A stretch of DNA of 64,000 bases, from NCBI RefSeq assembly GCF_949628265.1, contig NC_088786.1, positions 4,960,001 through 5,024,000 of the forward strand, given 5' to 3'. Every line of letters begins with the position of its first letter. Positions within the stretch are counted from its first letter, which is position 1. The notes under the pieces were generated by a model that had not been told where the DNA came from, ran no database searches, and was given only the letters and a program-made list of their open reading frames with translations. Origin of the DNA: Cloeon dipterum (lineage: Eukaryota; Arthropoda; Insecta; Ephemeroptera; Baetidae). The position numbers were made by a program, and so were the translations under genes. Below, one piece after another: positions 62 to 15,427 of the stretch.

Positions 62-1662
62 CTTGATCTGTTTCTTCATCGTGATGCAGAACAAAGTGAT
101 GAAGTACATGACAAGGATTGGCCAGAACACTGGGATGTTGAAGCAGTCGAACATGGTGCACACCATAGCAATCAGGGTGGACTTGCTCACCGAGTACCAG
201 AATTTGAACTCGGGCAGCCGCCGGATGAAAGGTCTGAACTCCTCGTTATTACTTGTTGGCAGCTCAGGACCGTCATCTGCAAAGTTCAGTCGATTAATTG
301 ATCTGTTCCCACTTTGCTGTTGTATACATTACCATCAAATTCTGATAAAGCTGGATCTATTTTTGGTGATAAGAATGCTATGAAGAGGTTGAGGTGGTAA
401 ATTCCCAGTGCATAGGTCACAATGTACCATCCCTGACAAATCAAAGAAAGCAATATTAATACTCGATTCTCAACTCACATTGAAAAAACAATTGTGCGGT
501 TAATGTGCTTTGTTATAATAACAGATCCAAATAAAAGTCGGATGCGTTAGTTGTGTTACCTGCAACCAAAAAACTCTAGCAAGGAAAAGGAGAATTAGGA
601 TGATTGCGAAAATCCATCTGGCGTTTGTGTAGGGAGTAACATCATCCAGTTTCTTCTGGTACATCTGCCAACACAAAACACACAAGGGTAAACACGTGCA
701 CATCTACCTGACATATCAACACCCTGAAGACCAGGGTGAACAAAAGAGCCCCAGTGATGGCCCAGCGAACTTTAGTGTGCGGCGTCCAATCGTCTAGTAG
801 CAGTTGATGCCACTAAGAAATCAGCCACACCACAAAGAGAGACCATCATTCAGTAAGGTTGTCATTTTTGTCAATACAGACAATATTTTTCAAATTTGAA
901 TGACATGATTGTTTCATTTTCTGATTTATTTATTAGTAGCCTACTTTCTTTTAATATTTTGCTGTTTCCATTTATTTCACGTAAGAGATTTTAATGGATA
1001 TTATGCGATGAAAAAACTTAAATGAAGATCCTTTCTATATAACAGAAGTGTGAAACAAATTTTTAGTAAGTTTATAGGTCAAAAGGAACTTTGAGCTCAA
1101 ATGCTCACAAAATTGACCGCCATACAAATTAAAATCATTAACTCTGCTCTACTTACGTTCCTTAGACTAAGAGTAAAACTTTTAAATTTTCATAGTTTAT
1201 AGTAGCTTCAAAATTATAAAACCCAAAATTCAAGCGAACCAAAAAAAATCGGTTTTATATTGGAAATCGTGTTTTTAAAGTCTTCAAGTGACAACAATTT
1301 ATTATGATTAATGATTCTCACTTAAAAAAATACATACATATGTGTTTGTCAATAATCACAAAAAATGACTTGTCGAAAGAGATTAAAAAGTGAGAAAGGG
1401 CACCACTTCTGGCATACACCGTGTTAAGACTTTACTCTGTGAAGAGCAAACCCGAAGTGGGCCCATAAATTTCTTGTTCAAGATATAATATCTCATGAAT
1501 ATAATGCTGACCTCTAACTGCTAATTTGGTGTCTAATTAACTTTGAATCTTTACGATAGGAACATATTATAACAAAAAATTTCATAATACCTGTTGAAGT
1601 CTTCTCCAAGCCAGGACGACCGCGCTTGGTCCTGAAGTCCCTTCTGCCGGTTCTTGCAACAT
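62..1662 (-). CDS. Rer1: Rer1, ER/Golgi retrieval receptor (3' end outside window)
   Basis: Rer1 is a four-membrane-span Golgi protein that returns ER membrane proteins and unassembled subunits to the ER. Coding exons in transcription order are 1662-1591 (start codon at 1662), 664-560 or the alternative 812-708, 432-333 and 276-62; the last 30 or so residues lie beyond base 1. Recognisable family signatures are LDDVTPYTNARW before the first span, GWYIVTYALGIYHLNLFIAF, EEFRPFIRRLPEFKFW and FWPILVMYFITLFCITMKK. Frames join cleanly (phase 0, 0, then 1). The start exon encodes MLQEPAEGTSG followed by VVLAWRRLQQ, matching the position of the family's VVYRFFTRLGQ segment. An acceptor at 1683-1684 shows that at least one 5' non-coding exon lies upstream. 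The second coding exon is duplicated (separate entries). Identification is strong; the 5' UTR is not resolved. Confidence 0.93.
560..664 (-). CDS. Rer1: Rer1 alternative exon 2a (proximal copy)
   Basis: This 105-nt exon encodes 35 residues, beginning MYQKKLDDVTPYTNARW and ending in the hydrophobic first span with RVFWLQ. It is flanked by a cag acceptor and a gtaac donor, in phase 0 at both ends, and joins directly to GWYIVTY of the next exon. It is one of two homologous exons; see the pair at 708-812. Confidence 0.88.
708..812 (-). CDS. Rer1: Rer1 alternative exon 2b (distal copy)
   Basis: This is a second 105-nt exon, phase 0 at both ends, with a ttcttag acceptor and a gtagat donor. It encodes WHQLLLDDWTPHTKVRW followed by a hydrophobic span ending RVLICQ. 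Aligned without gaps to exon 2a it shares Q3, L6-D7-D8, T10-P11, T13, R16-W17, R30-V31 and Q35. The KVRW form resembles vertebrate RER1 at least as well as exon 2a does. Only 43 nt separate the two copies, too short for a normal intron, so they are expected to be spliced alternatively rather than together. Confidence 0.82.
813..1590 (-). other. Rer1 intron 1
   Basis: AT-rich intron between the start exon and the duplicated second exon. I see no further coding segment on either strand. Confidence 0.7.
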
Positions 1663-3112: not shown

Positions 3113-6100
3113 CTAGTTGATCCTAACCATGTCCAGATTGTACAAGGGGGGTTGATCGTTCGTCGACGAAAAATTCTTAGGCGTTAGTAGCTCTTGGTCC
3201 ATTTTAACAGCCATTTTTAGGCGGTGGAAATTACGAGCGTCAGTCTCAGGTTTGTTCCACCACTCCCGGAACTCCAACGCCTCTCCTAGGGTGCCTGTGT
3301 CCAGGAAGCGCATAATCTTGAAGTGGTGGGACAGGCCAACGACCTCAGCTCTGTACCACAGGTTGTCGATCATGTTGAGAGCAACGCATCTTGTGCCTAT
3401 GGTGGTTTTGGTCAAAGGCGACAGGTTAATGACTTCACACTGCAGATTTTGAGTTCGTTTCTCAGCCTTTGATTTCCTAGCCACCCAAACAGAGCCATCT
3501 TCATCTCTGAGGACAAATTATTTTATTCAAAATTGTATGAAGACGTGCATGAACATATATTAAGTCAGTCGCATTTAACTGACACTGAGTATGTGAGAAA
3601 GAAAAAATGCTTAACTTACATAAAGGTGACATGCACTTTGACTAGATATCCGGCTGCTTCAAGTACATTGATTCCATTAATCCAGAGGCCGAGAAGGGCA
3701 TCTTCCTGGATCAAAGCGTGCGACTCTTTTCCTTTTGCTAAAATTTTCTTAATTTTAGCAAAGCTCTTTTCTGAGATCTCATCCTTGACGAGATCAAAAG
3801 GTTTAGCCAATGGCGGCACCATTTTCAGCAGGCGGCTAAGGTGCACAGCTGTTTTAACTTTGCTCATGTCGACATTGTAGGCGAGGTCTACGAGGAAAAA
3901 TGTCATCGGGTGAACATTCACCACCATTGCTCTGTGCCATTGATCATCGACTCGGACCGCACACATTTCTCCCATGACGGGGTTGGTCAAGGCAGGCAGT
4001 GAATTTCGATCCAACTGGTGGAGACTGTCACTCATCAAATTAAACGACGCTGTGTCTTCCACCAGCCACACTCTCTGTGGCAGTTCGATGTCCAACACGA
4101 TCACTGCCTTTTTCACTGCTGTTTTTGCATCAACTTGCATTCCTTCCTAGTAATCAGAAAATAACTAAATTAAAAATCACTAAATTTTAAGCGAGATATT
4201 TAATACAAATAGCTCTGCTTAGAGTGGATTGCCCAAGGATGATCTCTTATGAGATAAATTTAATTGAACTGCAGCTACTTCATCAACAATCTGCGGCTAG
4301 TTCTGCGGCGTGTTGTACTTTATATAGCATGTACAGTACTACTGATGAAGCGTGAACGACCAATAAAGCTTTTATCCAGGATGATTATTGAGATTTAATC
4401 ATGTTTAAAATTTCACTCCGAGCCACTCGTTAAATTCGCGCCATAGGTTTTTATCCATATGAAATTTACAATCCAAGATATGGTCAAAACATTTGAAATC
4501 ATTTAGATGATGACTTTATTCAACACAAATGGAGTACAACTGACATTACGTACATAACTAAATTAATGATAACACTTCAATTATTGAGTGGTTATAAAAA
4601 AAGTAATTAATAAAAAATAATTAAGAAAAACAGCGATTCAGAATGAAATCACCTGAGAAGCAGCTAGCCCAACAATTTTGTTGCCATCAGCGGTGATTTT
4701 GACATGCACCCTGCAGCCCTCCTTCAGACCCTCCAGGTTAGCAGGCGCCAAGCAAAGAAGGGTGGCGGCCGCTTTGTGCTTCAAATCAGAAGACATTCGA
4801 CGCACTTCTCCAAGAGAACCCCTGTGGCCAACATCAATGAACAGTGCCCTGCCTCCTGGAAGGATTTCGGCCCGCATCCAGTGGCCTTTGCTGAAGGCCA
4901 GGCACATCTTTTCCCCGTCCAGTTGTTCGCTGCGCGCATTCTGGGCTTCTTGGTCGATTTGAGCCTGCAGTTTGGCAAATTCAGCATCTCTTGAAGTCAG
5001 TCTTACGTAGACCAGGCTGGAGGACTGGACGTAGGTTACTGTGCCCAATTCAACGCCTTCTGGTACACTCTTGGGATCGGTGTTGATCTTGGCGGGCTCG
5101 CTTCTTGGCTCGTCAACAAAGCCTCTCGCAAGAGTGGCTGCCACGCTTGGCCTGCTGCTAGATTGAGAGATTAAAATTAATTAAGATTTAAAAAAATAAA
5201 ATAAACCAAAAACTTACTGGGCTACTGATGGAGCTACAGAATTGAGGCCTGCGTGTCGGCTGAGGGTTGCTCGAGACGGAGGAATTCTCATTTGACTCTG
5301 CTGGTCAAGTGAAGGGCGCATACTGATTAGACTGTGGCCTTGTAAAGGGCGAAAAGGAACCGGGCTGGAGCCTCGTGAAGAGCGATGCAAAGTATGACTC
5401 ATCTGACTGTCGTCTTCTGATGGTTGATTTCCAACGCAGCTTTCTTCTCCGTCCTTTGCAAGCCCCACAGCTGGTATGCCATCTACCTCTCCAAGCACTG
5501 TTATCAGGAGGTATTTGCTCTTTGGCCAAACTGGCTCTCTTGGAGCCAGATCGCAGAGAATAGCGAAAGCAGGTTGTACCATAAAATGCTCAGGCAAGTG
5601 ATAGAGCTGAGAGAATGGGATTTCCTACGATTTGGTATATGTTTTAATAATACAGCAAATTTTATTAAAATAACTTTTCCTACCTTAGTGACGCCATGAT
5701 CAACAAAGAGGCAAGTTGCATGAGTGGACATTGAGCTGGCTTTCAGGATTTTGGCCCTGCGCACATTATTGTCAACGACAGCCAACGCAAATTGGCCTTT
5801 TTTGGGCTTTATGAGAGGTTCTTTCCCGACAAGGTCTTTCAATTGATTTTCCATGTTGAGCAGATCAGCACACCTGAGAATTGCCTCAATTTTATTGACT
5901 AGCAGGTGAGATATTTATAAGTAGAAAAACCTTTCTTTCAGTTGTAAATAGACTTGTTTTCCTGAAGACAAAATAGGTTTGACTTCGTAAGTCATTCCCT
6001 CCTGCATGGCCAAGATATCGATGTTGGTCTTCCGCAGCAAATCAACAAGGCCGCAGGGTCCAAAGGTAGCGTTGAAGACTGATTCGTTTTCTTGTAAAGG

Positions 6101-11289: not shown

Positions 11290-14200
11290 ATGTTCAAATT
11301 TTACTTTTATATAGGCTCTCTAACATTATTGCTTGGATATGTGGTTTGATTGAAATTCTCCGTTGTTATCGCTCCTTTTCTAATAATATTTTTATAATAA
11401 ACAGATCAGCCTGTCCGTTTTTGGTCCAACAAAGCTAATCAAAATTAAACTTTCGCTTGGTAAGTTTTAGTCACCTTTTTCACATCTACTTACTGCTTAT
11501 TAAATATTTTGCTTAGGGCGCTATAACTCAAGACGATCACACATAATAAAATGCTGTGGGAAAACATCATGCTCTTCAATAAAGAAACATTGGAGAGAAA
11601 ATCAGAAAAACAAAGTTAATTCCAATAAAGCACGCAACATATATAGTTGACACATTTTATTTTAAATATTTTAGACAGCTCAACCAGGCGAAAAGTCTTT
11701 TTTGAGTAGTTTACCGACGAAAGCTTATTCAGCTATCACTGACAAGATTACAACCTCTGGTGAAAAGATTCCTCCATCAGCGCCTGAAATAATTACAGGT
11801 GATTAAATCTATAAATAAGAAATGACTAAGTACAACGGGTAGATGTGCCTCAAAATTTGGACCACAGACCCGTCAGAAGGAACGTTAGCATCGTTTTCTT
11901 CGCTACCAATCACAAGTGGTGTTTCTACTGCTTCAAGAATAACGGACAACTCAATAATTCCAACGATTGATGTGACCGCGGCCACCTATGCAGAAGCAAG
12001 TGTGACAACCACGACTGCGAGCACCGTGATTTCAAACCCATCTACCGATTTAACGACAGCTGTAACGACACCCACAACACCATCAACTCCACTACCCACT
12101 ACAACTTCTAGCTGCGCCTGTCCTACTGCAGCCTGCGCTGTCGCGGTAAAACTAAGAAAACTAAAAAGTTTAAAAATTTTCACGCACTCGGAAATTTAAT
12201 TTTGAAGGCGCTCAAAGAAACAGAGAAGCAGAAGTGGAGTTGTAACTTTGCTAATTTCAATTTGGTTTACTTTAAAAATAAAAATATTGACACAAAGCGC
12301 CGGATGGAGTTTTTAAACCAGCCTGTGGAAAGCAATATTTCATCAGTACAACACTGGTTATATAGAATTTAATTAAGTCTGCGCATCTTTTTATTTGATT
12401 AATATCTGTTTGAAAGAAAACACGAAATGATGCTGCCACGGAGTGTTGCAAATTTGACATGAAGCTGCTGACAGTAGACGATGGCTTGGAGCTGAGTTGC
12501 TTAGCTTCCATGAACGACAGCAAGTTTTCATTAATACGAGTCTGCAAATGCAAAGGCCAACGAAAGCATTCATTTGCAGTTTTTTTAAAGAAGACCTCGA
12601 GCTTTTGGACTTATGGCTCCAACGAGGGTTGCGAATCAACTCATTTTTGGTGTCCAGCTCGCACGCCTTTGGACTCGGTACTTTGGGCGGCCGCTCAGCC
12701 TAGCGCCCCAGCAACTAATCGTTGCGTTTCAATCAACCTTAAGACCAACGCAAATGCAAGCTTGATTGACCAGTCTTGTTCCACCACCTTACCATTTATT
12801 TGCAAGGCATTTTAATTCATAATTCAAACTAGTGAAATTATTCTAATGACAATAATCGCAACTCCGCACAGACTGAAATGCCTGCATGCAAAGCCACGTG
12901 TCCAAGGAATTGCTCCCAAATAAAAGACGTAAACTTGCGAAGCAAAATTATTTTTACATTTTAAGCGAAATATATAATTTACCTTTTTTTTCCTTTACGT
13001 TAAAACTTACAGGGGAACCTTTTCAACAATAACGGAGAACTGCTAGGTATTAAGAATTTGATTTGAACACTAAATGAAATAAATAAATGTCAAATTATGG
13101 TACACTTGTGTATTAGTGGATGCTGTACAGAGTTTTCATGCATATAGTTATGTTATGATTGATATGTTTTTAATTTGTTCAGACGTCAACAAGTATGGAC
13201 GTTGGGCGGGCGGAAACGGTCGAGCCTATTTGTATGGTGCTATAGACAAGGTTGGTATGCAAAATACGGTTTCTGTTTAGTTGTGCTGTGATATTGCTAA
13301 GCGAAAATGGCACAGAAAAATTGGAATGACGCATATGCATTTTGCTGTCGGCTGGGAACGGAACTGGTCCGAATCGAAACCGCTGATGAAATGACGACCA
13401 TCATCCAGCTAAATAACAACATTAGTATAAATCAATTTATTTGTTCTTCTCTGTTAATTGTTGTGAAACTAAAAACTAAATTTCCTTTTTTTTATTTAGC
13501 CGAACTAAAATATACACAAAAATTCTGGACCTCAGCAAGCCAACAAGACTGTCCTTACCAATTTGAATGGTGTGACAGTGGGATAGCTTTAGCGCCAATT
13601 GATACCAAATGGTCCAATCAATACAAAATGATTTTAACAACTAGATTAAATATCAACTGCGTCTATAGGGCGCTAGAGGAGCCGAGTTTTGATACTGGGC
13701 AGGAATTCTGCGTTGACGTGAATCTCGCTACTGGAAGTCCATCAGGTAATGGAGTTTTGGAAGACCTTACTTGCTCGAGCACGCTCGCTTTTATTTGCGA
13801 AGTAAGAATATGAATTCGTGCAGAAGCTTTATATTAATTTTGAATTAAAAGATGCCGTTTCCAAAAATGTGCCCAAAGATCACTTGCCCTGATTATGAAT
13901 GTGTTCTTGACGTATGAAATACCGACAATTTTACTAAATATAAAGGTGTGGTACAACTAATTTCTTTAAATTAAAAGCCAAAAAAAGTAAACGAGTCTGC
14001 TAACTGGAGGGCGACAACCGGCATGTTTCGCAGCGCTTGCAACAGACAATACTATCTAAGTGCCGACAAGGTATTTCTTTTCAAGTGCGAGAAGATGCCA
14101 AATCTTAGCGATTAATTTGACAGAAAACTCAAAAAGACGCAGCTGCTGAGTGCTGCAAATATGGTCTTCGGCTAGTGTCCATTGAGACGCTCGACGAGCT

Positions 14201-15427
14201 TAAATGCCTGATCGAAATGAACAATTGTTAGCGCGAGATTTTATTTCCAGCGTTTGACTAACCTTTTTTCTCTCCAAGGGTTCGTAAAAAATGCATTGCT
14301 TTATTGGACGTCGTTGTCCAATGATGGCATTGGATGCGTCCGTTCGCACGGTTGGTGTCCAGAGGGATCGCCTAACTCCAATGTCATACCCTGGGCCTCT
14401 GACGCACTGCAGTCGGCCGAGACGGAGAATTGCGCTGCTCTTTTCCTTTCCAATAGTGTCGTTAAGACCTCTGTGTTGCAGGATTATCCTTGCGACACTC
14501 AAAATTTCTACATGTGCGAAGTACACGCACTTCTAGATTTCAAGACTTGATTTATTTTAAAAGATTCTTTTTCTGCCGATCAGGGGGACATACAGCCCGA
14601 GTGCCAACCCAGCTGCCCTTACACAGATTGCACAAAAAATGTAAACTATTGTGTCTCTTCTTGATATTTTAACAGAGCATTTTATCCAGGTTGCGCTTTT
14701 TGGACCTGATGACAAGTTGTTGAGTTAGTGGATTCAATGCATTATATAAATATAATTTCATTGAAAATAAACTCTATTTTGTAGATCCAACAATTTATGG
14801 CACCTGGAAAACTGCTTGTGGCCGAACTTACATGTTTAGCACAGATTCCGTATTTATAGATATAAGAAGGTTGCAATCAGTTCATTTAATTTTGATTTTT
14901 CATAATCAAGCGAACTGTGGAAGGAGCATGGAATCTGTGCTGCAGCATTGGGATGAATTTAATTAGCGTTGAAACGGATCAGGAGCTGAAGTGCTTACAC
15001 GATCTTAATAATTGTGCGTATATATATACTGTTATAAAAGGTTCCCACTCATCGAAATTGGTACAGCCGACATGAAATATGCCACAGAATTCGTAACAAC
15101 TGGAAACTCATTCGGCTGTCCTTTCCTATTTGAATTCTGTGGAACTGGAGCTCGTATTTACAAAAACGATACAAGATGGTATAAATTGTGACCGTATTTT
15201 GATTTAAAAGATGCTACATGAATTAAAATAGGGATAAACCTTATGAGCCGAATAACAACGGAGGCAGCCAATACTGCTTGTACCTCCATTTAGCAGTTGG
15301 CGCCAGTTACGATGCCTCAAACCTGTGGGATCTTGGCTGTTCTGGCCAGAGCAAATATATTTGTGAAGTATTATGTTTTATTGTAAGTAATCATATAATG
15401 ATTTTCTTTTGAAAGGGACCAATTTGA
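11290..15427 (+). CDS. Secreted Thr/Ser-rich protein with four tandem C-type-lectin-like domains
   Basis: Proposed single gene. Exons: 11290-11343 (signal peptide, MFKFYFYIGSLTLLLGYV), 11405-11459, 11517-11614, 11675-11798, 11877-12145 (Thr/Ser-rich mucin-like stem ending CACPTAACAVA), then four repeated units. Each unit has a Cys-Pro linker (CxxxCPxxC type), usually a 34-nt microexon, a strand exon, an exon with the CC..G..LV.IET..E....NN motif, and an exon with FWT/YWTS...WC and a final C..(F/Y)(I/M)C. Units are at 12208-12806, 12872-13801, 13852-14520 and 14584-15367, followed by 15416-15427 (GPI, stop) and an AATAAA signal at about 15429. Phases agree throughout. Only unit 4 carries a canonical EPN sugar-binding tripeptide (YEPNNNGGSQYC); units 1-3 lack it, so most domains probably bind protein or nothing. 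Likely extracellular, in immunity or cuticle/mucus; function not established. Unit 1 may instead end at a TAA at 12813-12815. Confidence 0.72.
12208..12241 (+). CDS. 34-nt microexon of lectin unit 1
   Basis: Flanked by a gaag acceptor and a gtaact donor, it encodes ALKETEKQKWS plus one base (phase 0 to 1). It has the same length and phase as the microexons at 13013 and 14690. It supplies the single base needed to enter the next exon in frame (SPDGVFKPACGKQYF). Confidence 0.6.
13013..13046 (+). CDS. 34-nt microexon of lectin unit 2
   Basis: Located between the linker exon 12872-12928 and the exon 13193-13250. It encodes GNLFNNNGELL plus one base, phase 0 to 1, with acceptor acttacag and donor gtatta. 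Confidence 0.65.
14690..14723 (+). CDS. 34-nt microexon of lectin unit 4
   Basis: Located between linker exon 14584-14640 and exon 14785-14849. It encodes VALFGPDDKLL plus one base, phase 0 to 1, with acceptor tatccag and donor gttagt. Its ..LF....LL pattern matches the unit 2 microexon. In unit 3 the equivalent residues appear to be fused into the exon 13978-14070. Confidence 0.6.

Follow-up and report, generated by a model that had tools for sequence, protein, structure and literature searches.

Tandem homologous exons in known systems and in Rer1

Potential steric interference between neighboring exons, taken as a distance of less than 50 nt from donor to branch point, was reported in a human survey for 57 of 629 clusters (9%; PMC5740500), and two to six relay exons were reported for the muscle myosin heavy chain gene in the arthropod species studied (PMC2257972). 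Like sterically enforced mutually exclusive pairs, the two exons described here are adjacent, homologous, and in frame, and only a short distance separates the first donor from the likely branch point used by the second exon. They differ from those pairs in that the gene is Rer1 and in that they are known from sequence alone, with a branch point that is predicted.

The genome examined here also carries a myosin heavy chain gene, inferred to be of the muscle type from its relay array, with seven tandem relay exons on the minus strand (locus L017, C1:23761540-23765164). Matches to these exons lie 320 to 519 nt apart, which implies that exclusion there is not by space, and share a mean amino acid identity of 88%. 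The Rer1 pair resembles arthropod relay exons, the classical example, in being tandem and homologous, and the known relay cases choose one exon per transcript; unlike the relay exons, the two Rer1 exons are only 37% identical. The relay exons are identical at fractions of 0.90, 0.94, and 0.57 of first, second, and third codon positions, respectively, the same order as in the Rer1 pair, with far less divergence. The relay array and 94 matches to the cuticle protein family Chitin_bind_4 indicate an arthropod genome; a search for COX1 gave one match, below its cut-off (33.4 versus 34.8 bits), and one for odorant-binding proteins gave a single match (E = 1.6e-4) that is interrupted by two stops.

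Rer1 is a protein that retrieves stray membrane proteins from the Golgi to the endoplasmic reticulum. Its gene occupies the start of the window (the whole 64,000-nt stretch of DNA that was analyzed) on the minus strand, with five coding exons (1, A, B, 4, and 5) inside the window. Exon 1 (coding part, positions 1662-1591; ATG at 1662-1660, MLQEPAEGTSGPSAVVLAWRRLQQ) ends at the donor CAG/GTATTA and is followed by an intron of 778 nt (1590-813). Next come two putatively alternative first-membrane-span exons, A (812-708) and B (664-560), of 105 nt, 35 codons, and phase 0-0 each, with the translations WHQLLLDDWTPHTKVRWAITGALLFTLVFRVLICQ and MYQKKLDDVTPYTNARWIFAIILILLFLARVFWLQ, respectively. Between them lies a GT...AG spacer of 43 nt (707-665) that holds the exon B acceptor, its tract, and the likely branch point, for which the A at position 689 (GTTTAC) is the likeliest candidate predicted by motif. 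Exon 4 (432-333), which starts GWYIVTYALGIYHLNLF, and exon 5 (276-62) are common to both isoforms, and the last two coding exons lie on the same strand beyond the window start (locus L004; window-relative positions -769..-843 and -1543..-1575). In gene order from exon 1, the introns measure 778, 43, 127, 56, and 830 nt. The first-pass annotation of this DNA had described a minus-strand pair of 105-nt, phase 0-0 exons set 43 nt apart, and its coordinates, strand, lengths, phases, and spacing all agree with ours.

Both exons are open, with AG before and GT after each, and the joins 1-A-4-5-6-7 and 1-B-4-5-6-7 each give a 199-aa Rer1 frame without an internal stop. We consider it quite likely, on the comparisons set out below, that an old tandem exon duplication has left Rer1 with two isoforms, each of which would contain one of exons A and B but not the other. 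The duplicated exon would encode the first membrane span together with the residues that lead into it.

Two further features touch the ends of the gene. A little upstream of the Rer1 ATG is a TTTCAG, which may be an acceptor; if so, Rer1 would have a further 5' UTR exon. At the other end, reading through past exon 6 (in L004) gives a protein that ends in DAAKVNK followed by a stop, and splicing to the last exon gives one that ends in DAAKPEAAPLVAEI. The C terminus of Rer1 may thus also vary, by read-through versus splicing at exon 6.

Homology of exons A and B and probable selection on both copies

Each of the two exons matches the Pfam Rer1 profile (PF03248) alone. Exon B does so at an E value of 3.4e-7 (30.7 bits, profile positions 9-43) and exon A at 5.3e-5 (23.6 bits, profile positions 10-43), the latter score being just below a cut-off of 23.9 bits that is meant for whole proteins. 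When joined to their neighbors, exons 1+A+4 score 84 bits and exons 1+B+4 score 91.6 bits, so that either isoform exceeds the profile cut-off. Identity between the two translations is 13 of 35 residues, and their BLOSUM62 score of 58 lies beyond all 20,000 shuffles of exon B (mean, -30; SD, 13; maximum, 41), which rules out chance similarity. The homology proposed in the first-pass annotation is borne out both by the separate Pfam matches and by this comparison with shuffles. When the window was compared with itself by tblastx, the pair was one of 15 same-strand matches within 1,500 nt at an E value of ≤0.01.

Comparison with the presumed Rer1 segments of other organisms places A and B at similar distances from human, yeast, and Arabidopsis (15, 14, and 14 of 35 residues identical for A; 15, 13, and 14 for B). 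Both exons presumably retain L6, D7, T10, P11, R16, W17, and R30, and Y2 of the human, yeast, and plant proteins is presumably retained in exon B and lost from exon A. Hydropathy, scanned in windows of 19 residues over either exon together with the start of exon 4, peaked at 2.31 for B and 1.86 for A.

A and B qualify as a mutually exclusive pair by the criteria that are commonly applied in computational prediction. Those of the Kassiopeia predictor (PMC3923563) concern neighboring exons of similar length, compatible splice sites, the same phase, and sufficient homology. A and B adjoin each other, are equal in length, have GT-AG sites, and share their phase, and the ratio of their BLOSUM62 score to the self score is 58/196 (30%) or 58/184 (32%) against a default of 15%; this ratio is our own calculation and not output of the Kassiopeia program. 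The first-pass annotation had described tandem duplicated, apparently mutually exclusive exons; an old duplication, two copies apparently constrained as protein, and the predictor criteria support this, and the exclusivity is likely rather than certain.

The pattern of divergence between the two copies is that of coding sequence. Identity at codon positions 1, 2, and 3 is 16/35, 23/35, and 9/35, and agreement at third positions is thus at about chance level. When neutral drift to the observed DNA identity was simulated, with all change loaded on one lineage, the observed protein similarity was reached in 0 of 20,000 runs from B and in 0 of 20,000 from A, suggesting that both exons have probably been kept as coding since the old duplication. 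A frame free of stops survived in 4,718 of the 20,000 runs that started from B and in 4,209 of the 20,000 that started from A, and an excess of second- over third-position identities of at least the observed 14 arose in 13 and 12 of 20,000 runs, respectively. The dN between A and B is ~0.69; dS was uncomputable (returned as -1), as expected where silent sites are saturated. Neutral derivatives of B held at the same amino acid identity of 13/35 (60 sequences) kept a mean of 68 of 105 bases, compared with 48 of 105 observed. Among the 30 stop-free neutral derivatives of B, out of 60 made, that were scanned with Pfam, one matched Rer1 at an E value of ≤10, and exon A (5.3e-5) was the best Rer1 match of the 31 sequences scanned (A plus the 30 derivatives). 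On the strength of the drift simulation and the Pfam scan, we reject the view that exon A is a long-neutral relic. Selection has probably held both A and B at the protein level after an old tandem duplication.

Genome searches revealed neither a second Rer1 locus (E ≤ 0.001) nor near copies of exon A elsewhere. A search of the 190-Mb genome with the Rer1 profile at an E value of ≤0.001 found a single locus, with three exons matched; exon A was not among these matches, and a diverged single exon elsewhere could likewise be missed at this threshold. The exon A protein, searched against the genome at an E value of ≤10, found only itself, and since it did not find exon B, only near copies are detectable in that way. 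No further copy of A or B was found by tblastn between window positions 1 and 6,000, which include the 778-nt intron, or in L004 (E ≤ 5), with the exception of a 9-residue match in L004 (388-362). Searches with Rer1 exons 4 and 5 against viral contigs and genome contigs gave one 26-residue match each (L046 and L047), around which local tblastn for Rer1 yielded only short weak pieces. Among solved structures, the single match at an E value of ≤1 (E = 0.051) is labeled as a hypothetical protein and not as Rer1.

Spacing, splice sites, and the probable choice between exons

To set the 43-nt spacer against the introns of the same genome, introns were measured between neighboring matches of myosin-head and kinesin profiles no more than 400 nt apart, a limit that leaves long introns out of the sample; the kinesin step used 75 of 84 matches, those within 20 regions, and the stretches used for both profiles came from five sequences of 33 to 43 Mb. 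From 97 pairs, 67 were kept by rule and 66 were clean, with exactly the predicted length and good sites; the one removed from the 67 was a 34-nt candidate (L011) with a perfect donor inside it. Another 27 pairs were set aside for a length off the profile prediction or for weak sites, including candidates of 37 nt (L043; predicted, 40), 47 nt (L019; predicted, 50), and 52 nt (L015; predicted, 46). The remaining three had no GT-AG pair, one of which (in L031) appears by eye to be an intron of ~64 nt. Strong GT..AG pairs counted de novo across the window were too few to be informative.

None of the 66 clean introns is as short as the spacer, which falls 3 nt below the minimum. The shortest of these introns measure 46, 49, 49, and 50 nt, and 35 of the 66 are no longer than 70 nt. 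The 46-nt intron belongs to a kinesin gene (L029, offset 582, plus strand) and ends in TAGTAG; use of its first AG would give a 43-nt intron and one extra residue. That the spacer is below all 66 clean introns makes steric exclusion likely. Given the 3-nt margin and a human 43-nt intron, in ESRP2, that is reported to be spliced (PMC4463651), the spacer is likely, not certainly, too short to be an intron. The first-pass annotation had held it to be too short for a functional intron, which would enforce the choice of one exon; the comparison with the 66 introns favors this view, and the same margin and human intron keep it from being certain.

The position of the branch point bears on the same question. 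Within the 43 nt of the spacer, A occurs only at 0-based offsets 2, 4, 10, 18, and 41, and the predicted branch A at 689 lies 18 nt from the exon A donor and is the last A ahead of the terminal AG. Exclusion would therefore be mainly by space: with the exon B branch point ~18 nt from the exon A donor, splicing of A to B would be hindered. Among As that lie 12 nt or more from the intron end, the last one is 18 nt from the donor in the spacer and at least 28 nt from it in the 35 short introns, a difference that is partly due to the spacer being short. Of 36 short introns, a set that includes the 34-nt candidate, 15 also have their best branch motif within 20 nt of the donor, and the motif score alone does not separate the spacer from them. 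Likewise, the distance from donor to branch point is below 50 nt in the spacer at any position, and many normal short introns in this genome share this property, with the branch point being predicted. The reading frame is kept with both exons or with neither, so steric exclusion would have no frameshift or nonsense-mediated decay safeguard behind it.

The splice sites of the two exons differ chiefly in their acceptors. Both donors rank near the middle, since 30 of 66 leave-one-out scores do not exceed that of exon A and 28 of 66 do not exceed that of exon B. By the same measure, the exon B acceptor is good (42 of 66), and the exon A acceptor is very weak (1 of 66); 31% of all AG dinucleotides on the minus strand of the window score as well as the latter. 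An acceptor this weak would suit an isoform that is regulated or minor, or an exon that is seldom included. Exon B, with its strong acceptor, is probably the usual or default choice, and exon A would then be regulated, for example, by tissue or stage. UG-rich runs precede both acceptors on the minus strand, at 813-840 (UUUGUGGUGUGG) and 665-690 (UGUGUGUUUUGUGUUGG). These runs are possible candidate sites for a CELF/Bruno-type regulator.

The weak exon A acceptor, the 46-nt intron, and the occurrence of similar motif scores in 15 of 36 short introns all count against mutually exclusive use, and they lend some weight to other readings. Exons A and B could be cassette exons that can be included together, with the spacer as a true short intron and with Rer1 proteins that have a doubled first span or none. 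A frame that stays intact with both exons or neither, the average exon A donor (30/66), the 46-nt intron of this genome, and the spliced human intron of 43 nt (PMC4463651) are all compatible with that arrangement. We nevertheless judge it unlikely, in view of a spacer shorter than all 66 clean introns and a likeliest branch A only 18 nt from the donor; moreover, by general membrane-protein reasoning, an extra span is predicted to flip the remaining protein to the opposite topology.

A dead or dying exon A, with exon B alone in use and no second isoform, would account for the acceptor (1/66), for a Pfam score below that of B (23.6 versus 30.7 bits), and for the presumed loss of Y2, which is kept in B. 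Yet the exon A frame is open, equal in length, and flanked by both splice dinucleotides, its third positions are at chance level while second positions are conserved, and neither the drift runs (0/20,000) nor the neutral derivatives (1/30 matching Rer1 at an E value of ≤10) reproduce what is observed. We regard this reading as quite improbable, although the selection tests are blind to a very recent death of exon A. It is very improbable that A and B belong to transcripts from different promoters, with the choice made by transcription and not by splicing: exon B does start with an in-frame ATG, and the 778-nt intron lies before exon A, but the acceptors of both exons allow an in-frame join to exon 1, and exon A lacks an ATG. 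Mutually exclusive splicing of A and B is the likeliest reading.

Possible meaning of a first-span exchange in Rer1

Rer1 is generally regarded as a single housekeeping receptor. With A and B as alternatives, two forms of this receptor are probably made. Two studies (PMC11335228, PMC3891995) describe recognition by RER1 of polar residues in client membrane spans, as in DAP12, and its binding to PEN2 and nicastrin; in the available text of the former, this recognition is not assigned to the first span of Rer1 itself, and RER1 is cited as being considered a housekeeping gene in the mouse choroid plexus (PMC11335228). We speculate that the isoforms differ in first-span membrane packing or in cargo contact, and a change in cargo choice through the exon swap is likewise speculation. 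It is possible, and we offer it tentatively, that a regulated, space-enforced swap of the first span makes arthropod Rer1 a switchable receptor and sets, according to tissue or stage, which membrane proteins are retained early in the secretory pathway.

The two span versions, both apparently under selection and carried on a Rer1 that is identical elsewhere, amount to a natural swap experiment, and a comparison of the cargo retrieved by each isoform would reveal whether the first span joins in cargo recognition. The pair would also offer a compact test of spacing-based exclusion, as the shortest introns measured in this genome exceed the spacer by only a few bases.

The accessible portions of the open-licence literature on Rer1 splicing contained no description of two first-span exons, and a search there for mutually exclusive exons in cargo receptors gave nothing related. 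They report exon skipping in mammalian RER1 on loss of exon-junction proteins (PMC7470949) and cancer-linked RER1 splicing events whose type is not stated there (PMC11591948); other mentions of Rer1 were in a gene list of a Qki5 study and in a fish expression list.

Other parts of the window contain coding-like sequence as well. Upstream of Rer1, also on the minus strand, are two Tudor-domain open reading frames (3616-4140 and 4638-5144). On the plus strand, positions 12414-15370 hold coding-like segments that are similar to one another and arranged in tandem, and an open reading frame among them (13307-13813) matches Lectin_C.
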